A stretch of DNA of 53,597 nucleotides from positions 1-53,597 of the forward strand of contig JAHBZS010000034.1 of the NCBI GenBank assembly GCA_019635285.1. Direction: 5' to 3'. The translations under genes and the position numbers were made by a program. Below the pieces are notes generated by a model. It did no database searches. It saw only the letters and a list, made by a program, of their open reading frames with translations, and was not told the origin of the DNA. The stretch is from Rubrivivax sp. Lineage in GTDB: Bacteria > Pseudomonadota > Gammaproteobacteria > Burkholderiales > Burkholderiaceae_C. Numbering within the stretch: position 1 is the stretch's first letter; each line of letters begins with the position of its first letter. Below are positions 33,433 through 48,125 of the stretch, in pieces.

Positions 33433-33618
33433 TCACAACAACGGCGTCAGCCGCTCCAGCGCGATCACCGCAAAGAAGCCCAGCCCGGCGAGCACGGTCC
33501 ACTTCAGCACGATCAGCCCGCGCTGCAGCCACACCCGCTGCTGTGTGCCGATGTACATGCCGAAGCACAGCAGCGCGGCCAGCAGCAGCCCGCCGAAGGC
33601 CAGACGGAAGATCACCAT
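33433..33618 (-). CDS. Small membrane protein downstream of lpxC
   Basis: 61 residues with two hydrophobic helices ([21 protein letters not shown] and a second [21 protein letters not shown]). The ATG at 33618 overlaps the lpxC stop by 7 bp, so it is coupled to lpxC. I do not recognise the family; a role at the inner membrane is inferred only from its helices. Confidence 0.75.
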
Positions 33619-34547
33619 GCGGGGGCCAGCTCGGCAAAACCTTGGGGCGCCTGTGCCTCGTCGTCGAAGGTGACGGTGTCGTAGGCGGTGGGGTCGGCCA
33701 GCAGCGCGCGCAGCAGCTTGTTGTTCAGCGCATGGCCGCTGCGGTAGGCGCTGTAGGCCGCCAGCAGCGGCTGGCCCAGCACATGCAGGTCGCCGATGGC
33801 GTCCAGGATCTTGTGCTTGGCGAACTCGTCGCCGTAGCGCAGCCCCTCGGCATTGAGCACGCGCACCTCGTCGACGACGATCACGTTGTCCAGGCTGCCG
33901 CCCAGGCCCAGGCCGCGCGAGCGCATCATCTCCACGTCCTTGGTGAAGCCGAAGGTGCGCGCGCGCGCGATGTCGCGCTTGTACTGGCCCTGGCTGAAGT
34001 CGAACACCACCTGCTGGCCGGTTTCGTCCACCGCCGGATGGTTGAACTCGATCTCGAAGCTCAAGCGGTAGCCGTGGTACGGCTCCAGCCGCGCCCACTT
34101 CAATGTCGCGCCCTCGCCCTCGCGGATCTCCACCGGCTTCTTCACGCGCAGGAAGCGCTTGGGCGCGTTCTGCTTGACGATGCCGGCGCTCTGCAGCAGG
34201 TAGACGAAGCTCGCCGCCGAGCCGTCGAGCACCGGCACTTCCTCGCCGCTGATGTCGATGACCAGGTTGTCCAGCCCCAGGCCGGCGCAGGCCGACAGCA
34301 GGTGCTCGATGGTCTGCACGGTGGGCTGGCCGGGCAGGCCGCCCGGCGAGATGGTGGTGGCCATGCGCGTGTCGCTGACGGCCGTCACCGACACCGGGAT
34401 GTCCACCGGCGTCGGCAGGTCGACGCGGCGGAAGACGATGCCGCTGTCCGGCGGCGCCGGCTTCAGCGTCAGTTCGACCTTCTGGCCGCTGTGCACGCCC
34501 AGGCCCACGGCGTGGGTCACCGACTTCAGGGTGCGTTGCGCGAGCAT
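33612..34547 (-). CDS. lpxC: UDP-3-O-acyl-N-acetylglucosamine deacetylase
   Basis: 311 residues. LpxC performs the committed step of lipid A synthesis. The zinc ligands are visible: His in [19 protein letters not shown] (near residue 80), and His/Asp in [11 protein letters not shown] (near 240). GVHSG near the N-terminus and the C-terminal [13 protein letters not shown] are also present. It is normally close behind ftsZ in this order, but here ftsZ lies about 12 kb upstream on the same strand. Confidence 0.97.
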
Positions 34548-34627
34548 GGGGGAATTGTCGGCGAATCGGAGGGGCGGCGCGCCACTGTGGCCTAATCGCG
34601 CCTTTGCACAAAAGCTATGGAGCCACC

Positions 34628-34795
34628 ATGGGCAACAAGATCGTCACCGAAGCCGACCGCAAGGCCACGCCGCGTCCGCCCGCACCCAAGGGCGCGACGC
34701 TGACCGCGCACCGCGGCCAGAAGGTCAGCCTGGAGCGCGGATCGCACACGCGCAGCAAGAAGAACCCGGGCAAGCGCCCCAAGCAAGGCGGCTGA
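34628..34795 (+). CDS. Small basic hypothetical protein
   Basis: 55 residues, strongly basic (many Lys/Arg), ending [13 protein letters not shown]. No fold is predicted by eye; it may bind nucleic acid or be ribosome-associated, which is only a guess from charge. ATG 34628 is preferred to 34604. A hairpin follows at 34812. Confidence 0.6.
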
Positions 34796-34811
34796 ACCCC
34801 GCCCACCCCCT

Positions 34812-34826
34812 GCGGCCTTCGGCCGC
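34812..34826 (+). terminator. Hairpin after the small basic gene
   Basis: GCGGCC-TTC-GGCCGC is a perfect 6-bp stem with a 3-nt loop, flanked by CCCCT/AGGGG that can extend it. No T-tract. Confidence 0.5.
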
Positions 34827-34977
34827 CGGCTGAGGGGCGAGTGGGATAGAACACCGCCCCTGCGGCGCGTTCTTCGCCCCTCCCACACCGGCCGCGCCCT
34901 CGCTGCCGGCACCGTCCGCGGACAGGCCCAGGCCGACCCGCGACAGCGGCCCGAAGCGCGGGGCAGGCACTTCATCC

Positions 34978-36678
34978 ATGCTGCGCATCACCGAACTGCG
35001 CCTGCCGCTCGACCATGACGAGGGCGCGCTGCGCGCCGCCGTGCTCGCGCGCCTGGCGCTGGCCGACGCCGAGCTGCGCGCGCTGAACGTCTTCCGCCGC
35101 GCCTGGGACGCGCGCAAGAAGACGGCGGTGGTGCTGAGCTACACCGTCGACTGCACGCTCGCCGACGGCGTGGACGAGGCCGCCACGCTGGCGCGCCTGG
35201 CCGGCGACCGGCAGGTCCGCCTGGCGCCGGACACGCGCTACCGCATGGTGGCCCAGGCGCCGGCGGACTTTCGCGCCAGTGGCCGGCTGCGCCCGGTGGT
35301 GGTCGGCTTCGGGCCCTGCGGCCTCTTTGCGGCGCTGGTGCTGGCGCAGATGGGGCTGAGCCCGATCGTGCTGGAGCGCGGCCGGCCGGTGCGCGAGCGC
35401 ACGCAGGACACCTGGGGCCTGTGGCGCCGCGGCGAGCTGAACCCGCAGTCCAACGTGCAGTTCGGCGAAGGCGGCGCCGGCACCTTCAGCGACGGCAAGC
35501 TGTGGAGCCAGATCAGCGACCCGCGCCACCTGACGCGCAAGGTGCTGGAGGAATTCGTCAAGGCCGGCGCGCCGGAGGAAATCCTCTACGTCGCCAAGCC
35601 GCACATCGGCACCTTCCGCCTGGTGAGCATGGTGGAGAAGATGCGCGCCGACATCGAAGCGCTGGGCGGCGAGATCCGCTTCGGCCAGCAGGTCACCGAC
35701 CTGCGCATCGAAGAGCGCCGAGCGCAGGGCGGGGCCCCTGCGACGCGCCATCTTCGTGGCCTGCAGCTCGCCGACGGCAGCCAGCTCGACGCCGAACATG
35801 TGGTGCTGGCGCTGGGCCACAGCGCACGCGACACCTTCGCGATGCTGCAGCGGCGCGGCGTGCAGATGCTGGCCAAGCCCTTTTCGGTGGGCTTTCGCAT
35901 CGAGCACCCGCAGAGCCTGATCGACCGCGCGCGCTTCGGGCCCAGCGCCGGCCATCCGATCCTCGGCGCGGCCGACTACAAGCTGGTGCATCACGCCAAG
36001 AACGGCCGCAGCGTCTACAGCTTCTGCATGTGCCCGGGCGGCACCGTGGTGGCGGCCACGTCCGAAGAAGGGCGCGTGGTGACCAACGGCATGAGCCAGT
36101 ATTCGCGCAACGAGCGCAATGCCAACGCCGGCATCGTCGTCGGCATCGACCCGCAGGACTACCGCCAGGACGGCCGGCGCGACGGCAGCGCGGTCGACCC
36201 GCTGGACGGCGTGGCCTTCCAGCGCGCGCTGGAGTCGCGCGCCTTCGAGCTGGGCGGCGGCGGCTACGTCGCCCCGGGGCAGCGCGTCGGCGACTTCCTG
36301 GCCGGCCGGGCGTCCACCGCCTTCGGCGCGGTGCTGCCGTCGTACCGGCCCGGCGTGCGGCCCACGCACCTGGCCGAGCGCGGGCGCGAGAGCCTGCCGC
36401 TGTATGCGCTGGACGCCATCCGCGAGGCGCTGCCGGCCTTCGAGCGCCAGATCCCCGGCTTTGCGATGCACGATGCGCTGCTCACCGGCGTGGAAACGCG
36501 CACCTCGTCGCCGCTGCGCATCCCGCGCGGGCGCGACCACCAGAGCCTGAACGTGGTCGGGCTGTACCCAGCCGGCGAAGGCGCGGGTTACGCCGGCGGC
36601 ATCATGTCGGCCGGCGTGGACGGCATCGAGGTGGCCGAATCGCTGGGCCAGGCGCTGCTGGCCGACCTGGCGCGCTGA
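34978..36678 (+). CDS. FAD-dependent dehydrogenase, COG2509 family
   Basis: 566 residues. After an N-terminal ~100-residue domain, the Rossmann dinucleotide motif is VVVGFGPCGLFAAL (GxGxxG, about residue 108), followed by ERGRPV, then NVQFGEGGAGTFSDGKLWSQI and the C-terminal YPAGEGAGYAGGIMSAGVDG. This is an uncharacterised flavoprotein family sometimes linked to cofactor or RNA metabolism. It is convergent with argP after 10 bp. Confidence 0.9.
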   Translation: MLRITELRLPLDHDEGALRAAVLARLALADAELRALNVFRRAWDARKKTAVVLSYTVDCTLADGVDEAATLARLAGDRQVRLAPDTRYRMVAQAPADFRASGRLRPVVVGFGPCGLFAALVLAQMGLSPIVLERGRPVRERTQDTWGLWRRGELNPQSNVQFGEGGAGTFSDGKLWSQISDPRHLTRKVLEEFVKAGAPEEILYVAKPHIGTFRLVSMVEKMRADIEALGGEIRFGQQVTDLRIEERRAQGGAPATRHLRGLQLADGSQLDAEHVVLALGHSARDTFAMLQRRGVQMLAKPFSVGFRIEHPQSLIDRARFGPSAGHPILGAADYKLVHHAKNGRSVYSFCMCPGGTVVAATSEEGRVVTNGMSQYSRNERNANAGIVVGIDPQDYRQDGRRDGSAVDPLDGVAFQRALESRAFELGGGGYVAPGQRVGDFLAGRASTAFGAVLPSYRPGVRPTHLAERGRESLPLYALDAIREALPAFERQIPGFAMHDALLTGVETRTSSPLRIPRGRDHQSLNVVGLYPAGEGAGYAGGIMSAGVDGIEVAESLGQALLADLAR

Positions 36679-36688
36679 GCGCAGCCCT

Positions 36689-37582
36689 TCAGCGCGCCAG
36701 CGCCGTGCGCGCCGCGGCCTGCACCGCGCGGCTCAGGCCGTCCAGCAGCGACGACGCGGCGCGGGCGTGCTGCCAGTGCAGCGGCACGTCCAGCGGCGTG
36801 CCGGGCACCAGCTCCACGAGCGAGCCATCCGCCAGCCAGGGCGCGATCAGCGCCTGCGGATGCAGGCCCCAGCCCATGCCGGCGCGCGCCGCGGTGACGA
36901 AGGCCTGCGGCGACGGCAGGCTGTGCCGGGGCAGTTCCACATGCCGATGGCACAGCCGCCGCACCCAGCGCGCCTGCAGTGCGTCCTTGGTGTTGAACAC
37001 CAGGCTGGGCGCACTGGCCAGGCTGCCCGCACCCACGCCGCCGGCAAAGTGGCGCGCCACGAAGGCCGGACTGGCGGCCGCCACATAACGCATCGCCCCC
37101 AGCGGGCGGCTGTTGCAGCCCGCCGCGGGCCGCGCCGTGGCCGTCACGGCGGCCAGCACCGCGCCGCTGCGCAGCCATTCGGCGGTGTGGTCCTGATCGT
37201 CGACGGCCAGGTCCACCAGCACCGGCGCCGCCGCCGCGAAATCCGCAATGGCCGGGGCGAACCAGGTGGCCAGGCTGTCCGCATTCACCGCCACGGGCAG
37301 CGTGACGCGTGCCACGCCCTTGGGCGCCAGCGCCGGCAGCGTGCCATGCAGGTCCTGCTCGAGCAGGCGCACGCGGTCCACGTGCTGGCACAGGCGCCGG
37401 CCGGTCGGCGTGGGCCGGCAGGGCTGGTCGCGCACCACCAGCGCGCAGCCCACACGCTCTTCGAGCAGGCGCACACGCTGCGACACCGCCGACGGCGTGA
37501 CATGCAGCGCCCGCGCGGCCCGCTCGAAGCTGCCCTCGCGGATCACCGCAGCCAGCGCGGACAAGGCGGCATAGTCCAGCAT
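36689..37582 (-). CDS. argP: LysR family regulator ArgP-like
   Basis: 297 residues with the N-terminal helix-turn-helix GSFERAARALHVTPSAVSQRVRLLEERVG, the ArgP/IciA start MLDYAALSALAAVIREGSF, and an effector domain. ArgP activates argO in response to arginine and is antagonised by lysine. It is divergent from the LysE/ArgO gene over 74 bp containing an inverted repeat. Confidence 0.93.
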   Translation of the reverse strand: MLDYAALSALAAVIREGSFERAARALHVTPSAVSQRVRLLEERVGCALVVRDQPCRPTPTGRRLCQHVDRVRLLEQDLHGTLPALAPKGVARVTLPVAVNADSLATWFAPAIADFAAAAPVLVDLAVDDQDHTAEWLRSGAVLAAVTATARPAAGCNSRPLGAMRYVAAASPAFVARHFAGGVGAGSLASAPSLVFNTKDALQARWVRRLCHRHVELPRHSLPSPQAFVTAARAGMGWGLHPQALIAPWLADGSLVELVPGTPLDVPLHWQHARAASSLLDGLSRAVQAAARTALAR

Positions 37583-37587
37583 GGATT

Positions 37588-37607
37588 AAGTTTCACTTCA
37601 TCAACTT
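37588..37607. promoter_or_regulatory. Candidate ArgP binding site
   Basis: AAGTT-N10-AACTT (37588-37607) spans 20 bp in the AT-richer argP/argO intergenic region, with a TTCA-rich core. LysR proteins bind interrupted dyads of this size. It overlaps the probable leader of argP. Confidence 0.5.
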
Positions 37608-37656
37608 CAACAACGACAGTTTGTCTTCATTGCCGCTGGCTGGCAAGCTGTCGCCG

Positions 37657-38280
37657 ATGAACCCCTTGCCTGCCTTCGTCCAGGGCTTTGCGCTGAGCCT
37701 GGGCCTGATCGTCGCCATCGGTGCGCAGAACGCCTTCGTGCTGCGCCAGGGCCTGCGCCGCGAGCATGTGGGCAGCATCGTGCTGTTCTGCGCACTGGCC
37801 GACGCGGTGCTCATCGCCGCCGGCGTGATGGGCATGGCGCGCGCCCTGGGCGACCGCCCCGGGCTCGCGCAGGCGCTGGCGCTGGCCGGGGCCGCGTTCC
37901 TGGCGGCCTACGGGGTGCGGGCGCTACGCCGCGCGCGCCAGCCGCAGCGGTTGCAGGCCGCCGCGGGCGGCGCCGGCATGGGCCGTGCGGCGGCGCTGGC
38001 GCAGGCCGCGGCCTTCACGCTGCTCAACCCGCATGTGTACCTGGACACGCTGCTGCTGGTCGGCAGCATCGGCGCGCAGCAGCCGGCGGGGCTGCGCGGC
38101 GCGTTCGTGGCCGGCGCCGGCAGCGCCAGCCTGGCCTGGTTCGGCCTCTTGGGCTTCGGCGCACGCGGGCTGGCGCCCTGGTTCGCGCGCCCCAGGGCGT
38201 GGCAGTTGCTGGACGGCCTGATCGGCCTGACGATGCTGCTGCTGAGTGCCCTGCTCGTGCGCCACGCGCTGGGCGGCTGA
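37657..38280 (+). CDS. argO: LysE/ArgO family amino acid exporter
   Basis: 207 residues with about six hydrophobic helices. GFALSLGLIVAIGAQNAFVLRQGL is the typical LysE/ArgO start and NPHVYLDTLLLVGSIGA the conserved second motif. ArgO exports arginine (LysE lysine and arginine). ATG 37657 was preferred over the TTG at 37621, which lies in the regulatory region. It is divergent from argP. Confidence 0.92.
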   Translation: MNPLPAFVQGFALSLGLIVAIGAQNAFVLRQGLRREHVGSIVLFCALADAVLIAAGVMGMARALGDRPGLAQALALAGAAFLAAYGVRALRRARQPQRLQAAAGGAGMGRAAALAQAAAFTLLNPHVYLDTLLLVGSIGAQQPAGLRGAFVAGAGSASLAWFGLLGFGARGLAPWFARPRAWQLLDGLIGLTMLLLSALLVRHALGG

Positions 38281-38286
38281 GGCGCC

Positions 38287-39258
38287 TCAGTTGGCCGACA
38301 GGCCCACGTGCTTGATCACCGGCGCCCAGCGGTCGCGCTCCTCGACCATCCACTTGCCCATCTCTTCGGGCGTCGAGGCCACGCTTTCCATGTAGGCGGT
38401 GGCCAGCTTCTGCTGCGTGTCGGGCTCGTTCAGGATCGCGGCCACTTCCTTGTTGAAGCGGTTGATGATCTCCGGCGGCGTCTTCGCCGGTGCCATCAGG
38501 CCCATCCAGGCCAGCGCCTGGATGTCCGGGAAGCCCGATTCGGCCATCGTCGGCAGTTCGGGCGCCAGCTTGCTGCGCTTGGCGCTGGTCACCGCGATGG
38601 CCTTGACCTTGCCGGCCTTGGCCTGCGGCATCACCGCCACCGGCGGCACGCAGGCGAACTGCACGTCGCCCTGCATGATGGCCAGTACCGCCAGCGGCGA
38701 CGACGCATAGGGCAGGTGCACCGCGTAGGAATCGCTCTTCAGCTTGACGATCTCCACCGACAGGTGCGACATCGAGCCGACGCCGGTGGACGAATAGTTG
38801 TACTTGCCCGGGTCCTTCTTCATCGCCGCGACCCAGCCCTTGACGTCATCGACCTTCAGGTCGTTGGAAACCGCGCAGACGTTGGGCTGCACCGCCGCCA
38901 GCATCACCGGCGCCAGGTCCTTGAAGGGGTCGTAGGGCAGCTTCGGGTTGAACACCGTGCTGTAGACCAGCGGGCCGTTGGTGCTGACCAGCCAGGTGTA
39001 GCCATCGGGCGCGGCCTTGGCCACGTAGTCGGTGCCGGTGTTGCCGCCGGCGCCGGGCTTGTTCTCCACCACCACCGGCTGGCCCAGCGACTTGCCGAGC
39101 TTGTCGCTGAACAGGCGCACCAGCACGTCGGGCGACGAGCCGGGGCCGTAGGGCACGATGATGCGGATCGGCCGCGTCGGCCAGTTCGATTGGGCCGCGG
39201 CCGGCAAGGCTGCGGCGCACAGCGCGGCGGCCAGCAGCAGGGTTCGTCGATTGGTCAT
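38287..39258 (-). CDS. Bug (TctC) family periplasmic solute-binding protein in the chorismate operon
   Basis: 323 residues. Sec signal TLLLAAALCAAALPAAAQS, then WPTRPIRIIVPYGPGSSPDVLVR, VENKPGAGGNTGTDYV, HLPYASSPLAVLAI and a LAPELPTMAESGFPDI block. ATG 39258 has GGAGAC just upstream. It is 29 bp after the TrpE-like gene on the same strand, so it is probably the last gene of a four-gene operon. Its ligand is unknown but the context suggests an aromatic carboxylate. Confidence 0.92.
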   Translation of the reverse strand: MTNRRTLLLAAALCAAALPAAAQSNWPTRPIRIIVPYGPGSSPDVLVRLFSDKLGKSLGQPVVVENKPGAGGNTGTDYVAKAAPDGYTWLVSTNGPLVYSTVFNPKLPYDPFKDLAPVMLAAVQPNVCAVSNDLKVDDVKGWVAAMKKDPGKYNYSSTGVGSMSHLSVEIVKLKSDSYAVHLPYASSPLAVLAIMQGDVQFACVPPVAVMPQAKAGKVKAIAVTSAKRSKLAPELPTMAESGFPDIQALAWMGLMAPAKTPPEIINRFNKEVAAILNEPDTQQKLATAYMESVASTPEEMGKWMVEERDRWAPVIKHVGLSAN

Positions 39259-39287
39259 GCTCTGTCTCCCAAGGGTGAAAGTGAATT

Positions 39288-41258
39288 CTAGGCAGCGCCT
39301 TCGTGCAGCCATTGCAGCGCGGCCACCAGCGCGCGCTGCCCGGCCGCCTGCTGCAACGAGCGCAGCGCATCCGGCCTGAAAGCCAGCGCGACGATGCGGC
39401 GCGCGGCATGCAGTGCGGCGACCACGCGGCCGTCATCGCCGCGCGCCAGCAAGGTCCAGCCCGGCGGCAGCGTGTGCGCGGGCAGCAGGTGCGTGGCATG
39501 CACGCCGGCATGGAACTGGCCCAGGCCCTGCAGCAGCCCGCCCTGCACGGCTTCGCAGGCCAGTCCGCGGCCGAACTGCGGCAGCGGCAGCGCCTGCAGC
39601 TCGGCGCCGTCCAGCTCGAGCAGACGCAGCGCGGCGTTGTTCAGCGCCAGCGTCGGGCCGGAGGGCGCCCGCCACGCCGCATCGCGCAGCCGCGGCAGCG
39701 GTGCGTCGCCCAGCACGGTCAGCGGGGCGCCGTCGGCGAAGTGGCCGCCGGCCTGCACCAGCGCCTCGCGCGCCAGCGCCGCCAAGGCATCGCCGCCGTC
39801 GACGAAACGCACCGTGCGCCGCGGCGCAGGCGGCAGCGGCGCGGCCGGCGGCCTGGGCGACTGCCCGGCCAGCACGCGGAACATCGACTCGGCCTTGAGC
39901 TGCGTCTCGGCCTCTTCGCGCACCGGGTCCGAGTCGGCCAGCAGGCTGCCGCCGGTGCGCACCTCGGCCCAGCCGTCGGCCAGCCGCGCGAAGCGCAGCA
40001 GGGTCAGCGCCTCGCAGCTGCCGTCGCTGCCCAAGCGCACCGCCGCACCGGCGTACCAGCCGCGCCACTCGGCTTCCAGCTCGTCGATGGCGTGGCGCGC
40101 GTCGGCCTTGGGCATGCCGGTCACGGTGGCCGGCGTGCAGTGCGTGAGCACGATGTCGAAGCCGTCGACGCCGGCGCGGCGCCGGCCGCGCGTGTGGTCG
40201 ATGGTGTGCAGGATGGTGCTGAAGAAATGCACGCGCCGGCGCTGCAGCAGCTCCACGCTGCCGGGCTCGCACACCAGCGCCTTGTCGTTGCGGTCGGAAT
40301 CGGCACACAGCGCGAGCGAGGCCTCGTCGACCTCGGAGGCCATCAGCGCCTTGGCCTGCTCGTGGTCGTCCACCGGGTCGGCGCCGCGGCGGAAGGTGCC
40401 GCACACCGGCGCGGTCTCCACCCAGTCGGCATCGGCGCGCACCTGCACGTCGGGCGAGGCGCCGAAGACCTTCTCGCCGCCGCCCAGGTGCGCGAAGAAC
40501 ATCGCCGGATAGGGGTTGTCGCGGCGCAGCCGCTCGAAGGCTGCGGCCGCGTCCACCTGCGGCACCGCGCGCCTGAAGGTCTGCGACAGCACCAGCGAGC
40601 ACAGCTCGCCGCGCCGCATGCGCTCCACGCCGCGCGCCACCGCCGCGGCATGGCCGCCGGGCGCATGGTCGTCCTCGAAGCGGCTCAGGCGCACCACTTC
40701 CAGTGACGCCTGCGCGCCCGGCCGCGGCACCAGCCCGGGAAAGCGGAACTCGAGCCAGCGGTGGCCGCCCTCGCCGGCGCGCAGCACGCGCCGCGGCAGC
40801 ATCAGCGCGACGCGGCGCCGGCCGTCGTCGGGCACGTCGTCGGCATGCGCCAGCCGGTGGTAGTCGAAGGCCAGCGTGCCGTAGAGGCCGAAGTCCGGCG
40901 ACGGCGGCGTGAAGGCGGCGAGCAGCCCGCGCAGCCAGCTCAGCGCCGCATGCGGCCCGCTGCCGCCGGCGTCGAACTGGCCCTCCAGCCGGCCCTGCAC
41001 CGGCTCGAAGCCGGCCGGCCAGGGCAGCGCGTCCACCAGCCCGCGGCCGAGGTCGCCGTGCGGCACGACGCGCAGGCGCCGGCCGTCCAGATAGACGCTG
41101 AGCAGCGGGTCCAGCGCGGCCCGCGCCTCGCGCCGGTACAGCCCCGGCACGGCCACGTCGCAGCCCAGCCAGACGCCGCCGCCGGCGTCGATCTGGCGGA
41201 TGGCCAGCGCCTCGTCGGCCGCGCTGGCCGGGGTCTCGATGCATTCGACGCGGATCAC
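39288..41258 (-). CDS. TrpE-like chorismate-binding enzyme with degenerate glutaminase domain
   Basis: 656 residues. Residues ~200-465 are the chorismate-binding core: GEKVFGASPD, ETAPVCGTFRRGADPV, CADSDRNDKALVCEPGSV, HTIDHTRG and VTGMPKADA, resembling fused TrpE(G) and PhzE proteins. Residues ~480-656 resemble the class I glutamine amidotransferase by length and by AFRPDALRS, which aligns to the FHPES block, but the catalytic Cys-His-Glu triad is gone (TLALNN at the Cys position, F627-R628-P629-D630 at the His-Pro-Glu). GTG 41258 overlaps the PchB-like stop by 4 bp. Probably ammonia-dependent or non-aminating; product unknown. Confidence 0.82.
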   Translation of the reverse strand: MIRVECIETPASAADEALAIRQIDAGGGVWLGCDVAVPGLYRREARAALDPLLSVYLDGRRLRVVPHGDLGRGLVDALPWPAGFEPVQGRLEGQFDAGGSGPHAALSWLRGLLAAFTPPSPDFGLYGTLAFDYHRLAHADDVPDDGRRRVALMLPRRVLRAGEGGHRWLEFRFPGLVPRPGAQASLEVVRLSRFEDDHAPGGHAAAVARGVERMRRGELCSLVLSQTFRRAVPQVDAAAAFERLRRDNPYPAMFFAHLGGGEKVFGASPDVQVRADADWVETAPVCGTFRRGADPVDDHEQAKALMASEVDEASLALCADSDRNDKALVCEPGSVELLQRRRVHFFSTILHTIDHTRGRRRAGVDGFDIVLTHCTPATVTGMPKADARHAIDELEAEWRGWYAGAAVRLGSDGSCEALTLLRFARLADGWAEVRTGGSLLADSDPVREEAETQLKAESMFRVLAGQSPRPPAAPLPPAPRRTVRFVDGGDALAALAREALVQAGGHFADGAPLTVLGDAPLPRLRDAAWRAPSGPTLALNNAALRLLELDGAELQALPLPQFGRGLACEAVQGGLLQGLGQFHAGVHATHLLPAHTLPPGWTLLARGDDGRVVAALHAARRIVALAFRPDALRSLQQAAGQRALVAALQWLHEGAA

Positions 41259-41548
41259 GGCTGGCTCCAGCGCCGGTGTTCGGCCTCGGTGAAGGCCTCG
41301 ATCAGCTCGCGATAGACCCGCTCCACCACCTCGGGCAGCGCGCCGTGCTGCTCCGCCAGCGCACGCACGCGCGCCACCACCTGCTCCACGCGCTGCGGCG
41401 CGCGCACCTCGGCGGCACTGTGCTTGAAGCGTGCCGCGGCCAGCACGTAGCGGCCGCGTTCGGCCAGCAGTTGCACGACCTGCTCGTCGAGCCGGTCGAT
41501 CTCGGCGCGCACCTGCGCCAGCGATGTGCATTCTTCAGGTGTATTCAT
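41255..41548 (-). CDS. Chorismate mutase family protein, PchB-like
   Basis: 97 residues, an all-alpha chorismate mutase type II domain. CTSLAQVRAEIDRLDEQVVQLLAERGRYVLAAARF and the KHSAAEVRAPQRVEQVVARV block are closest to PchB isochorismate-pyruvate lyases rather than to housekeeping AroQ. Catalytic positions R15, R32 and K43-equivalents appear as conserved arginines and a lysine. It overlaps the FAD gene by 14 bp and the TrpE-like gene by 4 bp, indicating coupled expression. Confidence 0.85.
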   Translation of the reverse strand: MNTPEECTSLAQVRAEIDRLDEQVVQLLAERGRYVLAAARFKHSAAEVRAPQRVEQVVARVRALAEQHGALPEVVERVYRELIEAFTEAEHRRWSQP

Positions 41549-42887
41549 CCGTCCCCAGCCAAGCCCCTTGGTCCCTCAAGCCGCGCTGCAGCGCGGCCAC
41601 GTCGACATTGGCCACCGCGCCGCCGGCGCGCAGCGCCAGCGCCGCCCCCAGGCCGGCGGCCTCGCCCATCACGAAGCAGGCGCCGCTGACCCGCGCGGCC
41701 GACTGCGCCGCCGCATCCATCGACGCGCAGCGCCCGGCGACCAGCAGGTTGCGCACTTGCTGCGGCAACACCATGCGCCACGGCAGCTGGTTGTAGCCGC
41801 GCGAGTCGGCCGGCGGCCAGCTCCACTTGACGTCGCCGGCCACGTGCTGCTCCAGCGGCCAGGCGTTGACGCCGATGCTGTCGTCGAAGTCGGCGCAGCC
41901 CAGCACGTCCGCGCCCGTCAGCACCGCGCGCCCCAACAGGCGCCGCGTCTCGCGGATGCCGACCTGGGGCGCGATCTCCAGCAGGTAGGCGTGCTCGAAG
42001 CCGGGCATCTCGGCGCGCAGGAAGGCGAAGAACTCGCGCACCTGGCGCCGGCCTTCCACCTCGCCGGCCGACAGCTGCAGCGCGTCGGTGCCGTCCATCG
42101 CGCGGCCCTGCGCGTTGGCGATCTGCGTGACGTTGACGCGCCACTCGCCGGCATGTTTCATCGGCCGCAGGATCGCCCCCTGCCGCGCGAAGCGATGGCG
42201 GCCGGCGCGCTGCGCCTCGGCCATGCGCGGGCCGACCTCGCGCCAGGCCTCGCCGGCACGCGCGTCGTCGACGCCGGCGACGCGGAACATCAGCGTCGGG
42301 TAGAGCAAGTCGCCCTGCGCATCGCCCTGTTCCCACGGCGCGCCGGCCCAGTGCATCAGGTCGCCGTCGCCCGAGCAGTCGATGAACACCTGGGCGCGCA
42401 GCGCGCGGCGGCCCGAGCGGGTCTCGACCAGCAGCGCATCGATGCTGCCGTCGTCGCGCATCTGCACGCCCACGGCCTGCGCGTGGAACAGCAGCTGCAC
42501 GCCGCGCGTCAGCAGCAGCTCGTCGGCCGCGCACTTGTAGGCCGCACCGTCGTAGGCCTGTGCCAGCGTGCGGCCGAAGATGGCATGCGGCTCGTTCAGC
42601 CCGCCCAGCGCGTCGATGCGCTGCAGCAGCTCGTCGGCCACGCCGTGCACCACGCGCCGCATGCGGCCGTGCACGTTGGCATGCAGCCCGCAGAAATTGG
42701 TGACGCCTGCCGCGGTGCCCATGCCGCCGAGGAAACCGTAGCGCTCCACCAGCAGCGTCGCACGGCCGGCGGCCGCCGCACGGGCCGCGGCGGCGATGCC
42801 GGCGGGGCCGCCGCCCAGCACCAGCACCTCGGTCTCGGCCAACAGCGGGGTACGCCGGGCGCTCTCGGTCAGGGACACGGCAGCCAT
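41535..42887 (-). CDS. FAD-dependent oxidoreductase (FAD_oxidored family)
   Basis: 450 residues. The N-terminal dinucleotide motif is VLVLGGGPAGIAAAARAAAAG, with ERYGFLGGMGTAAG following. FIDCSGDGDLMHWAGAP and RNLLVAGRCASMDAAAQSAARVSG are the other FAD-binding blocks of PF12831-type proteins. It is first in the operon with the PchB-like, TrpE-like and Bug genes. The substrate is unknown; the context suggests an aromatic or chorismate-derived compound. Confidence 0.87.
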   Translation of the reverse strand: MAAVSLTESARRTPLLAETEVLVLGGGPAGIAAAARAAAAGRATLLVERYGFLGGMGTAAGVTNFCGLHANVHGRMRRVVHGVADELLQRIDALGGLNEPHAIFGRTLAQAYDGAAYKCAADELLLTRGVQLLFHAQAVGVQMRDDGSIDALLVETRSGRRALRAQVFIDCSGDGDLMHWAGAPWEQGDAQGDLLYPTLMFRVAGVDDARAGEAWREVGPRMAEAQRAGRHRFARQGAILRPMKHAGEWRVNVTQIANAQGRAMDGTDALQLSAGEVEGRRQVREFFAFLRAEMPGFEHAYLLEIAPQVGIRETRRLLGRAVLTGADVLGCADFDDSIGVNAWPLEQHVAGDVKWSWPPADSRGYNQLPWRMVLPQQVRNLLVAGRCASMDAAAQSAARVSGACFVMGEAAGLGAALALRAGGAVANVDVAALQRGLRDQGAWLGTDEYT

Positions 42888-42950
42888 CGGTCGATTATGG
42901 CGAGGCGCATGCTGTCATCATGCTGGGCCGACAACCCCGTGGAGGAGACG

Positions 42951-43778
42951 ATGACGATGCGCCCCGCTGCACCCCTTGCCCTGACCTGCCTGGCCGCCCT
43001 GCTGGTGGGCTGCCAGACGCCGCCGCCGACCTCGCCCGAGGCGGTGGGCGAATTCCGCAAGGGCTCCGGCTACCTCAACGGCTACCTGAATCCGAAGCAG
43101 TTGCCGAACAGCCTGGCCCTGCTGCCGCCGCCGCCCGCCGCGGGTTCGGCGCAGGCCGCCGCGGACATGGAGACGTTCAAGAGCACGCGCGCGCTGCGCG
43201 ACACGCCGCGCTGGGCGCTGGCGACCAAGGACGCGAACCTGAAGTTCCCGGCCGCGGCCTCGACCTACGAATGCGCGCTGCAGATCCCCATCTCACAGGA
43301 GGCCACGCCCAACCTGAACATGCTGCTGCGGCGCACCTTGCTCGACGCCGGCCTGTCCACCTACGCGGCCAAGGACCACTACAACCGGCAGCGGCCCTTC
43401 GTCGTCGCCGGCGCGCCGACCTGCACGCCGGCCGAAGAGCCGGCGCTGGCCAAGGACGGCTCCTACCCCTCGGGCCATTCGGCGCTGGGCTGGGCCTGGG
43501 CGCTGGTGCTGGTGCAGGCCGCGCCGCAGCGCATGGACGCGCTGCTGCAGCGCGGCTACGCCTTCGGCCAGAGCCGCGTGATCTGCGGCGTGCACTGGCA
43601 GAGCGACGTCGACGCCGGCCGGGTGATCGGCGCGGCCGCCGTCGCACGCCTGCAGACCGACGACACCTTCAAGGCGCAGCTGGCGCTGGCGCGCGACGAG
43701 ATCGCCCAAGCGCAGGCCAAGGGCCTGAAGCCGAGCGGCGACTGCGCCGCCGAAGCTGCGGCGCTGGCGATTCGCTGA
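42951..43778 (+). CDS. Class A non-specific acid phosphatase lipoprotein (PhoN-like)
   Basis: 275 residues. A lipobox LLVGC gives an acylated Cys21. The PAP2/acid-phosphatase signature is complete: KDHYNRQRPF (KX6RP), YPSGHSALG and SRVICGVHWQSDVDAGR (SRX5HX3D). Class A acid phosphatases release phosphate from organic esters in the periplasm or outer membrane. ATG 42951 has GGAGGAG at 42941-42947. It is divergent from the FAD gene. Confidence 0.94.
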   Translation: MTMRPAAPLALTCLAALLVGCQTPPPTSPEAVGEFRKGSGYLNGYLNPKQLPNSLALLPPPPAAGSAQAAADMETFKSTRALRDTPRWALATKDANLKFPAAASTYECALQIPISQEATPNLNMLLRRTLLDAGLSTYAAKDHYNRQRPFVVAGAPTCTPAEEPALAKDGSYPSGHSALGWAWALVLVQAAPQRMDALLQRGYAFGQSRVICGVHWQSDVDAGRVIGAAAVARLQTDDTFKAQLALARDEIAQAQAKGLKPSGDCAAEAAALAIR

Positions 43779-43890
43779 ACTGGCGACGAGCTGGCGGCGT
43801 GCCGAAGCCGGTGCGGCAAAGCCGGGCCCGGGCAGGCCGCGACGCTTCGCTGAGGGGGGCGTCTGCTCCGACGCGATCGAAACGGCGCGC

Positions 43891-44052
43891 CTAACGCCGC
43901 ATCAGCAGCGACACCCCGACCAGGATCAGGATCAGCGGCCACCAGGTGGCGAACAGCGGCCCGAGCCGGGGGATCAGCCCCAGGTTGGACAGCAGGAACA
44001 ACGCGCCCAGCACGATGAGCACGATGGCGCCTACACCCGAACGCGATCTCAT
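43891..44052 (-). CDS. Small LiaI/LiaF-like transmembrane protein (DUF5668-type)
   Basis: 53 residues: MRSRSGVGAIVLIVLGALF, then LLSNLGLIPRLGPLFATWW and PLILILVGVSLLMRR. Two hydrophobic stretches flank a GLIPRLGPLFATWWP motif, the hallmark of the LiaI-LiaF-like membrane region. ATG 44052, stop at 43891-43893. It lies 57 bp after the PAP2 stop on the same strand, likely the last gene of the lipid-phosphate operon. Confidence 0.8.
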   Translation of the reverse strand: MRSRSGVGAIVLIVLGALFLLSNLGLIPRLGPLFATWWPLILILVGVSLLMRR

Positions 44053-44109
44053 GTCTTTTCCGTTCGCTCTGCGAAGACAGCGGGCATTCTCGCGCCAGCG
44101 CCGCTCGTC

Positions 44110-44913
44110 TCAGCGCAGCCGGTGCCGCCGGCTCAGCTCGACGCTGAGCACGCACACCGCCAGCCAGGCCAGGCCGCAGGCAAAGCCGGCCACCACGTCG
44201 CTGGCGAAATGCACCTGCAGGAACACGCGGCTGCTGCCCACCGTGAAGGCCAGTGCCGCGGCGCCCATCAGCGCCGGCACATGCCAGCGCGGCGGCAGCA
44301 CGCGCAGCGCCAGGTAAGCCAGCATGCCGTAGGCCACGGTCGCGCCCGCGGTGTGGCCGCTGGGGAAGCTCCAGCCGGCCTCGTTGACCAGGCCGTGCTC
44401 GTGCACCGGCCGCACGCGCTCGAAGATGCGCTTGAGCAGCGGGATCAGCAGCGCGTTGCCGGCCAGCGCCAGCAGCCAGGCCAGCGCCAGCGGCCCGTGG
44501 CCGCGCCGCCACAGCAGCACCGCCACCACGGCGGCCAGCGCGCTCAGCAGCCAAGCATCGCCCAGGTGGGTCAGCAGGTAGAAGCATTGCAGCGTGGCCC
44601 GGTCCACGTGAAGGCCGATCGACTGGCTGAGCGCCTCGTCGATGCGTGCCATCTGGTGGCCGTCACCCAGTTGCTCGGCGATCTCGGCAAAGGCGTGGGC
44701 GGCGCCCACCAGCACCGCGAAGCCCGCGCCCACGCCCAGCAGCAGCAGGGCAGGCTGCGGCAGGCCGGCCTGCGCGCGCGGCCACACATGCTTCTGCCAG
44801 GTCCAGCCGAGCGCGCCCACCGCCAGCAGCAGCGCGCCCAGCAGCATCAGGAACAGCGGCAAGGCATGCCGCCCGGCCCAGTCGGCCGCGGCCAGCGACG
44901 CCTCAGCCGACAT
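44110..44913 (-). CDS. PAP2 family phosphatase, membrane-bound
   Basis: 267 residues with about six hydrophobic helices. The phosphatase motif is KRIFERVRP (KX6RP), FPSGHTAGATVAYG and SRVFLQVHFASDVVAG (SRX5HX3D). Membrane PAP2 enzymes dephosphorylate phosphatidate, undecaprenyl pyrophosphate or similar lipids. ATG 44913 overlaps the phosphoesterase gene by 11 bp. The neighbouring diacylglycerol kinase-like gene suggests a lipid-phosphate cycle. Confidence 0.92.
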   Translation of the reverse strand: MSAEASLAAADWAGRHALPLFLMLLGALLLAVGALGWTWQKHVWPRAQAGLPQPALLLLGVGAGFAVLVGAAHAFAEIAEQLGDGHQMARIDEALSQSIGLHVDRATLQCFYLLTHLGDAWLLSALAAVVAVLLWRRGHGPLALAWLLALAGNALLIPLLKRIFERVRPVHEHGLVNEAGWSFPSGHTAGATVAYGMLAYLALRVLPPRWHVPALMGAAALAFTVGSSRVFLQVHFASDVVAGFACGLAWLAVCVLSVELSRRHRLR

Positions 44914-45718
44914 CGCCCGGCTCCAGCGGATGCACCGCGATGCGGCGGAAGCACTGCATCGCCGCATCGTAGTCCCAGCGTTCGACCTGCCCCTGCCGCG
45001 GCTGGCCGCCGCACGCGGCGCGCAGCTGCAGCAGGTTCACCGAATTGTCGATGCCGTCGCGCACGCGCCGGCTCAAGGCCGTGCCCGCCTGCACCACCCA
45101 CAGCGGCCGTCCCGGCGTCTGACCGGGCCGCTGCAGCACATACGGCAGATGGATGTGGCCACCGAGCACTAGGTCCACGCCCGCTGCCGCCCAGCGCCGC
45201 AGCGCGGCCGCGTGCCCGTGCAGCAGGTCGTGTGCGTCGTCGGGCGACGGCACGGCCAGCGGCTGGTGCACCGCGACCAGCCGCCAGCGCTGTGGCGCGG
45301 CACGTTCGGCACGTTGCGCGACCTGCTCGATCTGCGCGGCGCCGAGCGCGCCGTCCACATGGCGCCAGCGGCGCGTGGTGTTCAGCGCCCACAGCTGCAG
45401 GTCCGCGTTCTCGAACTGCGGCTCGAGCTCGGCGCCGAAGGCGCGCGCATAGCGTGCATAGGGCCACAGCAGCCGGCTCGCCAGGTCGAACAGCGGCAGG
45501 TCGTGGTTGCCCGGAATGGCGATGCACGCCGGCACGCCCAGCGCATCGACATAGGCGCGCGCCGCGGCGAACTGCGCCGCGGTGGCGCGCTGCGTGATGT
45601 CGCCGGTCAGCAGCAGCAGCGCCGGCCGCTGCGCCTGCACCAGCGCGCGCAGCGCGTCGGCCACCGCCGGCCGCACCGTGCCGAAATGCGGGTCCGACAG
45701 CTGCAGTAGCCGCGTCAT
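44903..45718 (-). CDS. Metallophosphoesterase, CpdA-like
   Basis: 271 residues with the metal-binding motifs LSDPHFG, TGDITQR, GNHD, HQPL and GGHIHLPY in order, as in class III cyclic-nucleotide phosphodiesterases (CpdA/Icc). The ATG at 45718 overlaps the diacylglycerol kinase stop by 4 bp. cAMP or another phosphodiester could be the substrate; the lipid context leaves phospholipid head groups possible. Confidence 0.92.
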   Translation of the reverse strand: MTRLLQLSDPHFGTVRPAVADALRALVQAQRPALLLLTGDITQRATAAQFAAARAYVDALGVPACIAIPGNHDLPLFDLASRLLWPYARYARAFGAELEPQFENADLQLWALNTTRRWRHVDGALGAAQIEQVAQRAERAAPQRWRLVAVHQPLAVPSPDDAHDLLHGHAAALRRWAAAGVDLVLGGHIHLPYVLQRPGQTPGRPLWVVQAGTALSRRVRDGIDNSVNLLQLRAACGGQPRQGQVERWDYDAAMQCFRRIAVHPLEPGDVG

Positions 45719-46689
45719 GCGCGCGCGCGCTCGGGGGCCCGACCGGGCGGCCGGATCAGCCACAACGGCTCGGGCGCCACGCGGAACCGCAGCGGCAGCG
45801 GCAGGCGCAGCACCTCGCCGTCGGTGGCGACGAGCACGCGGCGGCGCGTCGGCGGCCAGCCCAGGTGGGCCGTCAGCCGCACGAAGGCGAAGTTCAGCAC
45901 CTGGTCGGCATCGCCCAGCTGGCCGAAGGCGCCGCGCAGGATCAGCCCCAGCATGGCCAGGCGGCCCACCGGCCGCAGCAGCACCGCCGCCAGCGCGCCG
46001 CGTTCGACGCTCCGCGCTTCCGGAAAGCCCAGCTGCTCCAGCTGCAGCGCGTTGTTGCCGACGAACAGCGTCGGCGTGCGCAGCTGCTGCGTGCGACCCT
46101 GCACCTCGAGCTGCAGGCGCAGGCTGCGGTAGCCGCGCAGCAGCGTCGCCAGCCCGGCGCCCAGGGCCACCAGGCGGCTGCGGCCGAAGCGGCGCTTCCA
46201 GCCCTCGCGCTCTTCCAGCAGACGCGGGTACAGGCCGACGCTGGCGTTGACCAGGAACACACGGTCGTTGACCAGCCCCGCCTGCACCGGCTGCGCCGGC
46301 GACTGCAGCAGCACCTGCATGGCCTCGGCCGTGTCCTGCGGAATGCCGTGGCTGCGGCCGAAGTAGTTGAAGGTGCCCTGCGGCAGCACGCCGAAGGCGC
46401 AGCCGCTGCCCAGCACCGCCTGCGCCACCGCATTCAGCGTGCCGTCGCCGCCGGCCGCGACGACCACGCCGCGCACGTCACCGGCGCGCCGCACCGCGTC
46501 ACGCGCGACGTCGCCGAGGCGCTGCGCATCATCGACCGTCAGCAGGTGCAGCTGGCGGCCGGCCGAGGCGCAGGCCTGCTCGATGGCCAGCCGGGCCGAG
46601 GCGGCGTCGCCGCCACCGGACCCCAGGTTGAAGACGACGAACAACGGGCCGGACGCAGAGGGCGCCGGCGACGGCAGGGGATCGGACAT
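45715..46689 (-). CDS. Diacylglycerol kinase-like lipid kinase
   Basis: 324 residues. The nucleotide-binding GGDGT (VVVAAGGDGTLNAVAQAVL) and GVLPQGTFNYFGR motifs are typical of the DagK/YegS/BmrU family. A beta-sandwich C-terminal half follows with LFVGNNALQLEQLGF. ATG 46689 is the natural start; a longer frame from 46767 is probably spurious. It is first in the dagK-phosphoesterase-PAP2-LiaI-like operon. Confidence 0.92.
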   Translation of the reverse strand: MSDPLPSPAPSASGPLFVVFNLGSGGGDAASARLAIEQACASAGRQLHLLTVDDAQRLGDVARDAVRRAGDVRGVVVAAGGDGTLNAVAQAVLGSGCAFGVLPQGTFNYFGRSHGIPQDTAEAMQVLLQSPAQPVQAGLVNDRVFLVNASVGLYPRLLEEREGWKRRFGRSRLVALGAGLATLLRGYRSLRLQLEVQGRTQQLRTPTLFVGNNALQLEQLGFPEARSVERGALAAVLLRPVGRLAMLGLILRGAFGQLGDADQVLNFAFVRLTAHLGWPPTRRRVLVATDGEVLRLPLPLRFRVAPEPLWLIRPPGRAPERARA

Positions 46690-46907
46690 GCGGCAGAAGA
46701 CCGTCGGCGCAAGACGCGGCCAGTATCGGCCGCGGCCCGCCCCGCGCGCGTAGGACAAGGCCGCCATCGCGGCCCATGCCGGTGCGCGCGGCCGAGCCCG
46801 GCGCCGTCACGCGCCGTGCTGCGCCAGCCCTGCTTCTGCGTGCTGACCGCGCGAGAGACGCCGGCACGCGGCCGCAGCCGCAGCCGCCTGCCGGCGCTGG
46901 CCTGGGC

Positions 46908-48125
46908 TCAGTCGGCCTGCTTGCGCAGGAACGCCGGGATCTCGATCTCGTCCATGCCGTTGCTCGACAGCGCCTCGACCTTGGCCGCGGCGCTCTGCGA
47001 GCGCGCGGTGCGCCACACGCTGGGCGTGCTCAGGCTGCTGTAGTCCTGCGGCTGCGCCGGCGCGGACCCGCCGGCCGCCTGCACCGACTGGTTCAGGATC
47101 GGCAGGTTGTCGGTGCCGGTGCGCATGGCCGGCTGCTGCACCACGCTCAGCGGCGGCTGCGCGCGGCGCGCCAGCGACGACAGGCCGGTGGCGATGACGG
47201 TGACGCGCAGCTGGTCGCCCAGGCTTTCGTCGTAGGCGGTGCCGAAGATCACGTGCGCATCGTCGGCCGCGTAGCGGCGGATGGTGTTCATCGCGTTCTT
47301 GCTTTCCGACAGCTTGAAGCTGCCCTTGCTGGCGGCGATCAGCACCAGCACGCCGCGCGCGCCGGACAGGTCGATGCCTTCCAGCAGCGGGCAGGCCACG
47401 GCCAGCTCGGCCGCCTTGTTGGCGCGGTCCGGACCGCCGGCCTGCGCCGTGCCCATCATCGCCTTGCCCGGCTCGCTCATCACCGTCTTCACGTCCTCGA
47501 AGTCGACGTTGACCAGGCCCGGCACGTGGATGATGTCGCTGATGCCGCCGACGGCGTTGCGCAGCACGTCGTTGGCATGCGCGAAGGCCTGCTCCTGCGT
47601 GATGTCGTCGCCCAGCACCTCGAGCAGCTTCTCGTTGAGCACGACGATCAGGCTGTCGACGTTGGCTTCGAGCTCGGCCACGCCGTGGTCGGCCTGCGTG
47701 CAGCGGCGCTTGCCTTCGAACTCGAAAGGCTTGGTGACCACGCCGACCGTCAGGATGCCCATCTCCTTGGCCACGCGCGCGATCACCGGTGCCGCGCCCG
47801 TGCCCGTGCCGCCGCCCATGCCGGCGGTGATGAACAGCATGTGCGCGCCCTGGATCGATTCGCGGATGCGGTCCACCGCCTCTTCGGCGGCGTTGCGGCC
47901 GACCTCGGGCTTGCTGCCCGCGCCCAGGCCGCTGGTGCCCAGCTGCACCAGCTCGCTGGCGCGGCTGCGATTCAGCGCCTGCGCGTCGGTGTTGGCGCAG
48001 ACGAACTGCACGCCCTGTACGCCCTGCGCGATCATGTGCTCGACGGCATTGCCGCCGCCGCCGCCGATGCCGATCACCTTGATCTGCGTGCCCTGGTCAA
48101 ATTCCTCGATCATTTCGATAGCCAT
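46908..48125 (-). CDS. ftsZ: Cell division protein FtsZ
   Basis: 405 residues, the tubulin-like GTPase forming the division ring. The GTP-binding signature GMGGGTGTGAAPV is near residue 105, with GGGGGNAVEHMI at the N-terminus. The C-terminal IPAFLRKQAD is the conserved tail that binds FtsA and ZipA. AGGAGG precedes ATG 48125. It follows ftsA after 91 bp with an AT-rich spacer. Downstream a diacylglycerol kinase-like operon replaces the usual lpxC. Confidence 0.98.
   Translation of the reverse strand: MAIEMIEEFDQGTQIKVIGIGGGGGNAVEHMIAQGVQGVQFVCANTDAQALNRSRASELVQLGTSGLGAGSKPEVGRNAAEEAVDRIRESIQGAHMLFITAGMGGGTGTGAAPVIARVAKEMGILTVGVVTKPFEFEGKRRCTQADHGVAELEANVDSLIVVLNEKLLEVLGDDITQEQAFAHANDVLRNAVGGISDIIHVPGLVNVDFEDVKTVMSEPGKAMMGTAQAGGPDRANKAAELAVACPLLEGIDLSGARGVLVLIAASKGSFKLSESKNAMNTIRRYAADDAHVIFGTAYDESLGDQLRVTVIATGLSSLARRAQPPLSVVQQPAMRTGTDNLPILNQSVQAAGGSAPAQPQDYSSLSTPSVWRTARSQSAAAKVEALSSNGMDEIEIPAFLRKQAD

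Follow-up and report, generated by a model that had tools for sequence, protein, structure and literature searches.

A stretch of 53,597 nucleotides from Rubrivivax sp. (contig JAHBZS010000034.1 of assembly GCA_019635285.1, positions 1 to 53,597, here called the window) carries a compact cluster of four minus-strand genes. In order of transcription, they encode a FAD_oxidored flavoprotein, a small PchB-like AroQ protein with a chorismate mutase-type domain (hereafter CM), a TrpE-like protein of the fused TrpEG group, and a periplasmic receptor of the Bug/TctC family (Table 1). The original prediction, made from the letters of the DNA, had described this arrangement with an overlap of 14 bp between the FAD and CM genes (41535-41548), an overlap of 4 bp (GTGA) between the CM and TrpE-like genes (41255-41258), and a gap of 29 bp before the Bug gene (39259-39287). 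All of these are exact to the base, the four protein identities lie above their Pfam cut-offs, and the same order recurs in another genome of the genus (G022). As judged from gene neighbourhoods across the family, the conserved core of this system is the pair of CM and Bug genes, while genes for salicylate 5-hydroxylase (S5H), the TrpE-like protein, the FAD protein, and a sulfatase are changing partners of that pair.

Table 1. Genes and domains of the four-gene cluster, with their positions in the window.
Feature	Position	Strand	Size	Basis
FAD_oxidored (PF12831) flavoprotein, first gene	41535-42887	minus	450 aa	Pfam, 368 bits, above curated cut-off
PchB-like AroQ protein (CM, CM_2 domain)	41255-41548	minus	97 aa	Pfam CM_2, 76 bits, above cut-off
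TrpE-like protein of fused TrpEG group	39288-41258	minus	656 aa, GTG start	Pfam Chorismate_bind
Chorismate_bind domain (PF00425) of TrpE-like protein	39894-40652	minus		164.5 bits vs cut-off 27
Glutaminase-like C-terminal remnant of TrpE-like protein	39291-39821	minus		Alignment with fused TrpEG relatives
Bug/TctC periplasmic receptor	38287-39258	minus	323 aa	PF03401/TctC, 208.1 bits vs cut-off 27

The evidence for the core comes from the receptor. In all nine genomes tested, the best match to the window's Bug protein is the linked one (55-88% identical outside the own copy), including G142, where it adjoins CM on a different contig from that of the TrpE-like gene. These genomes hold between 5 and 48 Bug matches at the threshold used, and the runner-up by score never exceeds 44% identity. 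Orthologues of this Bug were detected at E<=1e-95 in 29 of 399 family genomes, own included, which gives 30 loci together with G022, and CM lies adjacent to or in one operon with the Bug orthologue in 22 of these 30. The eight loci without CM are those of G262 (contig end), G377, G234, G375 (examined for CM by hidden Markov model (HMM) search only), G433, G069, G150, and G358. In each of the 21 pairs resolved by the gene caller, CM and Bug are on the same strand, and 14 pairs overlap by 4 bp, with some other CM-Bug gaps left unsure by the start calls; the CM of L148 was missed by the gene caller and recovered by HMM search (L127). Of the rows in the Bug tree, 26 group into a single clade (SH-aLRT 99), 21 of them with CM, and one further CM locus (G156) falls outside it. 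Both this tree and that of the TrpE-like family are quick searches with SH-aLRT support only. Since the candidates scored per genome numbered up to three for the TrpE-like family (family, order, and phylum), five for Bug, nine for S5H, and 58 for CM in the genus, some carriers may have been missed in these searches.

With regard to the partners, CM and Bug are located inside an S5H operon in seven loci (L139, L140, and L142-L146). There the genes for the alpha and beta subunits of a Rieske oxygenase come first, followed by CM, Bug, and a Rieske ferredoxin gene; a LysR gene lies upstream on the opposite strand, and in L139 and L140 a ferredoxin reductase gene precedes alpha as well. The alpha subunit of L139 matched the salicylate 5-hydroxylase structure 7c8z over residues 5-416 (787.6 bits, E 2.9e-236), and the next molecule, terephthalate dioxygenase, scored 317 bits; family and domain calls were made on L139, and the other six were assigned by sequence clustering. 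Salicylate, which had been named as one possible product of the cluster, fits as a theme, given that CM and Bug occur within these operons. S5H operons of the nagAaGHAb type are known, and the published Ralstonia solanacearum cluster consists of nagAaGHAbIKL with LysR and porins; the word chorismate is absent from the available part of its main text (PMC4916378). In L195 (G207), a CM lies beside an S5H gene, and the Bug match is split over two open reading frame (ORF) pieces. A sulfatase gene directly precedes CM-Bug in L054, L150, and L155 (family search on L054 only). In L153 and L154 (G234 and G433), where CM is missing, the gene immediately before the Bug orthologue is protease-like and resembles DegP by eye.

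The TrpE-like family is less widespread than CM-Bug. It was found in one of 36 other same-genus genomes (G022) and in eight of 399 sampled genomes of the taxonomic family, own included (the others being G444, G262, G142, G223, G107, G193, and G251), and the resulting nine sequences form two subgroups that both keep company with CM-Bug. The window and G022, with the order FAD-CM-TrpE-Bug, are the two genomes found to have the exact four-gene set. In G444, a flavoprotein of 571 aa with cNMP-binding and Pyr_redox domains takes the first place (flavoprotein-CM-TrpE-Bug), while G223, G107, G193, and G251 have CM-Bug-TrpE. In G142, the TrpE-like gene and the CM-Bug pair are on separate contigs, and in G262 the contig ends within the TrpE-like gene, its Bug then adjoining. 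The TrpE-like gene thus accompanies CM-Bug in seven loci and two gene orders, and one more locus ends inside it beside its Bug. None of the nine matches contains an internal stop codon. A scan of genome contigs with two patterns returned two loci, apparently the G022 and G262 copies. The original prediction had asked whether the block is conserved apart from housekeeping trpE. The TrpE-like gene is indeed found with CM and Bug in other genera, away from that gene, but the four genes are not a fixed unit. The same prediction had named rare adjacency in relatives as a sign against a distinct pathway. Within the genus the genes are indeed rare (TrpE-like as given above; CM in two of 76 genomes, own included), whereas among family genomes with a Bug orthologue adjacency is common.

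Outside the family, matches at E<=1e-70 were obtained in one of 398 other genomes in the order search (G684) and in 31 of 397 others in the phylum search, a threshold that may miss weaker relatives there. The residue-level comparison covered 11 proteins from these matches, all of them fused TrpEG enzymes with the glutaminase Cys and His. Plasmid-borne TrpE-like matches in Streptomyces, Legionella, and Methylobacterium showed no CM or Bug within the available, incomplete annotation; a Sinorhizobium plasmid record without annotation also carries a TrpE-like match.

The TrpE-like protein belongs to the MST (Chorismate_bind) superfamily by its PF00425 domain and predicted fold, the AlphaFold2 model (mean confidence, pLDDT, 85.4) having its best fold matches in TrpE and PabB. 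Its best NCBIfam match is the fused TrpEG model PRK13566/TrpE-clade3 (best stretch residues 104-472), and the family forms one clade (SH-aLRT 100) on a long stem within the fused TrpEG group, in a tree that warns of long branches. On the other hand, it scores far below the curated cut-offs (330.5 vs 645 bits for PRK13566; 290.4 vs 739.15 bits for TIGR01815), and the glutaminase residues are lost. The catalytic Cys (NNA or GDA for CLG) and His (RPD or RPE for HPE) are absent from all nine members and present in 11 of 11 fused TrpEG relatives, which bears out the degenerate glutaminase seen at first. The gene is also not the organism's trpE, a point left open at the outset. The one other Chorismate_bind protein of the genome, on contig C51, passes the curated TrpE model TIGR00564 (539.1 vs 517.7 bits), and the TrpE-like gene was rejected as the housekeeping trpE. 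A single Chorismate_bind protein was found in 10 of 11 same-genus genomes examined.

The chorismate site itself was compared in an alignment of 24 rows, in which the nine members were set against 15 proteins (the 11 fused TrpEG relatives, the own TrpE, and EntC, PabB, and TrpE of E. coli). Four positions are invariant in the nine members, S221, D270, C286, and S314, where the comparison proteins have E/Q/K, E, S/A/K, and E, respectively. S221, D270, and S314 correspond to EntC K147, E197, and E241, which we take to be the general base, the general acid, and the Mg-ligand Glu, and C286 corresponds to PabB K274, presumably the active-site Lys and nucleophile of the E. coli enzyme, a residue that not every PabB has. 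By contrast with these replacements, H351, R422, E448, E451, and K455 (carboxylate-binding His, Arg, and Lys and two metal-site Glu) are kept in all 24 rows, with E451 equivalent to EntC E376, for which we likewise assume a metal-site role. The residue tests for an isochorismate synthase of the EntC/MenF/PchA kind failed in nine of nine (no Lys base, Glu acid, or Mg-ligand Glu), as did that for the PabB Lys (Cys286 in nine of nine). With four catalytic positions replaced, the protein fails the sequence tests for anthranilate, aminodeoxychorismate, and isochorismate synthase, and a functional enzyme of any of these three kinds was rejected on its residues. It also follows that the protein does not simply occupy the place of isochorismate synthase, as had been proposed, since base, acid, and Mg ligand are Ser, Asp, and Ser throughout. 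PhzE (aminodeoxyisochorismate (ADIC) synthase) and the salicylate synthase MbtI share the fold in the structure search at 16-24% identity. In MbtI, compared by fold and published residues rather than in the alignment, the base is a Lys and both the acid and the Mg ligand are Glu, as described, with roles for K205, E252, E297, and E434, in the available part of PMC8008425.

The TrpE-like protein is a member of an apparently undescribed subfamily with replaced catalytic residues, and the best reading of its sequence is that of a repurposed or else a binding-only or dead enzyme. The members are only 35-38% identical, yet the four replacements are invariant, which leans towards a new function. All four genes of the cluster are under net purifying selection between the window and G022, with nonsynonymous/synonymous rates (dN/dS) of 0.095/0.342 for FAD, 0.158/0.335 for CM, 0.169/0.389 for TrpE-like, and 0.075/0.263 for Bug (over 316 aa, owing to a contig end in G022). 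The ratios are thus about 0.28, 0.47, 0.43, and 0.29, so that the constraint on the TrpE-like gene is weaker than that on FAD and Bug and similar to that on CM. This selection, like the recurrence of the gene order in G022, speaks against a cluster that exists only by chance.

The best structure match of the window's CM in the PDB is PchB (65.7 bits, aligned from residue 1), with which it shares the AroQ family, R14, R31, K42, and R53, and the PchB residues A50 and V54. It differs from PchB of P. aeruginosa in E90 for Q90, A85 for W85, and F86 for Y86, and in its company, as PchB is partnered by PchA, but this CM by a Bug receptor together with a TrpE-like protein. All 21 CM family members retain R14, R31, K42, R53, and A50, and the Val of PchB at position 54 is present in three of three members of the window's subgroup (window, G022, and G444). 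The mutase-type Glu at this position occurs in none of the 21, and the residue test for an AroQ chorismate mutase failed. The genome has one other CM_2 protein, on contig C37. In the available part of PMC12329711, whose numbering is one higher, Val at this site (PDB position 54, Val55 in the paper) is tied to lyase and Glu to mutase activity, the Glu contacting the 4-OH of chorismate in mutases; it is also cautioned there that the single Val/Glu exchange does not swap the activities. Given its Val54, the AroQ protein in the window's subgroup probably acts as a lyase of the isochorismate type.

An orphan AroQ chorismate mutase gene was also observed on a Klebsiella pneumoniae plasmid (L188, 5992-6279), with similar matches in 64 Klebsiella and eight Enterobacter plasmid records (41-43% identical to the L139 CM among the matches listed). 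In the one record of this type examined it has other neighbours, with ccdAB and integrases nearby, and an AroQ gene on an Azotobacter plasmid likewise has other neighbours.

The FAD gene is an optional partner of this Bug group in its own right. In L158 and L157, copies with 63-67% identity stand beside Bugs of the wider group without CM in G358 and G150, and a copy 62% identical stands beside a 48% identical Bug on a Cupriavidus necator plasmid, where the pair, together with a divergent gene that is LysR-like by eye, lies at 5881-8323 of L190. No CM match was found at L190. In total, FAD accompanies a Bug of this group in five loci, counting the Cupriavidus Bug (48%), which has no place in the tree. 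FAD and Bug thus recur together even where CM is absent, as a second pair, and in the window the two pairs are combined.

Taken together, the cluster is tentatively read, with somewhat less than even confidence, as a salicylate-linked modular gene set on a CM-Bug core, with a lyase-type AroQ in the window's subgroup and a repurposed or binding-only TrpE-like protein. The theme best supported for the module is salicylate or its precursor, and the core would handle salicylate or its enolpyruvyl precursor. According to this scheme, the periplasmic ligand of the Bug receptor would be an aromatic or cyclohexadiene carboxylate, and it is likely that an isochorismate-type acid or salicylate itself is taken up in this way. 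TphC (aromatic acids) and Bug27 and Bug69 (quinolinate) are in the same receptor family, the likeness being one of family and published ligand in the available parts of PMC8556258 and PMC11452294. The AroQ protein with Val54 would then convert an isochorismate-type acid into salicylate and pyruvate, and in other lineages the S5H of the same operon would convert salicylate into gentisate. The TrpE-like protein keeps the residues for holding the carboxylates and part of the metal site but would have lost the known water or ammonia chemistry on chorismate. The two least certain steps are that in which it would make or bind a different chorismate-derived acid, or act as a binding-only pseudoenzyme, and that in which the cyclic acid so formed would be oxidised by the flavoprotein.

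Several observations weigh against this scheme. In 18 of the 21 CMs, position 54 is Gln and not the lyase Val, and since Q54 is likewise found in the second subgroup of TrpE-like carriers, Val54 does not simply track the TrpE-like gene. Glu90 is found in all 21 where PchB has Q90, which we take to be an active-site residue, and the window's CM scores 91.7 bits against a cut-off of 126 for the NCBIfam isochorismate lyase model (PRK07075). An S5H-like alpha elsewhere in the genome (65-81% identical) was found in five of the nine TrpE-like genomes (G142, G251, G223, G107, and G193), but G444 has only a 40% relative, and none was detected at E<=1e-60 in the window's genome, G022, or G262, so that the salicylate link of the window's subgroup is one by analogy. 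Conversely, CM was found in the fetched flanks of three of the best 30 S5H loci, which were drawn from 68 positive genomes among 200, and in three of 46 S5H loci scanned overall. The 13 CM-Bug genomes without a TrpE-like gene contain 15 PF00425 proteins, namely 13 ordinary TrpE (79-87% identical to the own TrpE) and two with the PabB Lys; none of the 15 has the isochorismate synthase Lys, the EntC K147 position being Gln in each. An internal isochorismate supply of the known kind is thus missing in these genomes, and in their lineages the case for a lyase is weaker as a result. As to the FAD protein, its neighbourhood is the sole ground for the role given to it. Matches to solved structures are confined to the N-terminal nucleotide-binding part, and the structure model is too poor to use (pLDDT 48.2). 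As an aside, a single Chorismate_bind protein, the TrpE, was present in 11 of the 13 genomes, which therefore have no recognisable PabB. No open-licence paper joining chorismate mutase, tripartite tricarboxylate receptors, and salicylate was found.

The nearest competitor, rather unlikely but stronger than the others, is that the TrpE-like protein is a pseudoenzyme, acting as a chorismate- or salicylate-binding regulator, as a scaffold for AroQ, or being en route to loss. That the base, the acid, a metal ligand, and the glutaminase have all gone together would fit this, as would the absence of the TrpE-like gene from most CM-Bug loci and its higher dN/dS ratio relative to FAD and Bug, but CM is no more constrained. 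Moreover, invariance at such low identity is more suggestive of selection towards a new site than of decay, and the reading frames are free of internal stops. A bolder pair of proposals, unlikely when taken jointly, would make the TrpE-like protein a new type of enzyme acting on chorismate, with Cys286 standing where PabB has its nucleophile and with an acid as product that AroQ then splits, and would make AroQ-Bug an import-coupled lyase that frees salicylate from environmental enolpyruvyl precursors, e.g., from plants, and feeds S5H.

Salicylate synthesis in the manner of PchA/PchB, with the TrpE-like protein as isochorismate synthase and the PchB-like lyase yielding salicylate as a signal or chelator, is improbable to about the same degree. 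The gene-pair architecture, the PchB-type V54 and A50, the retained substrate-holding residues, and the S5H link of the core speak for it; however, Ser replaces the equivalents of EntC K147 and E241 and Asp that of E197 in every member, and CM-Bug (22 loci) is wider than the nine TrpE-like sequences, indicating that CM is independent of them. It is no more probable that the cluster is a chance mosaic, in which CM-Bug would be the only functional unit and FAD, TrpE-like, and S5H independent passengers. Such a mosaic would account for partners that vary by lineage and for a four-gene set confined to two genomes, but hardly for the recurrence of TrpE-like with CM-Bug in two orders or of FAD with Bug. 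Least probable by some distance is an amino route like that of PapA/PapB to p-aminophenylalanine, in which the TrpE-like protein with free ammonia would form ADIC or aminodeoxychorismate for AroQ to act on. The nearest relatives, fused TrpEG anthranilate synthases, speak for it; against it, the glutaminase residues have been lost, the equivalents of E. coli TrpE E361 and E309 have been replaced, and no aminotransferase or dehydrogenase adjoins except the FAD protein.

Three features deserve attention. In chorismate-utilising enzymes, a few residues decide among water, ammonia, and lyase chemistry, and a subfamily with substrate-holding residues but replaced catalytic ones, beside a partly lyase-type AroQ, tests the other capacities of the fold. 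The presence of AroQ-Bug in S5H operons raises the question of why a salicylate degrader that lacks any isochorismate synthase of a recognised kind has a chorismate-type enzyme. In addition, the AroQ-Bug pair offers a route to the ligand of one group in a large, mostly unassigned receptor family.

Regarding the setting of the cluster, neither a sigma-70-type promoter nor a minus-strand terminator-like site was found at 37000-43500, other promoter types being outside that scan. The cluster is located in a stretch of about 12.4 kb (34548-46907) between genes that we take to be lpxC (33612-34547) and ftsZ (46908-48125, full ORF), names that come from reading the ORFs without a family search. In E. 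coli, lpxC and ftsZ adjoin. Within this stretch, Pfam also identifies a PAP2 and a LysE gene, and three further genes resemble, by eye, a second PAP2, a phosphoesterase, and a lipid kinase.

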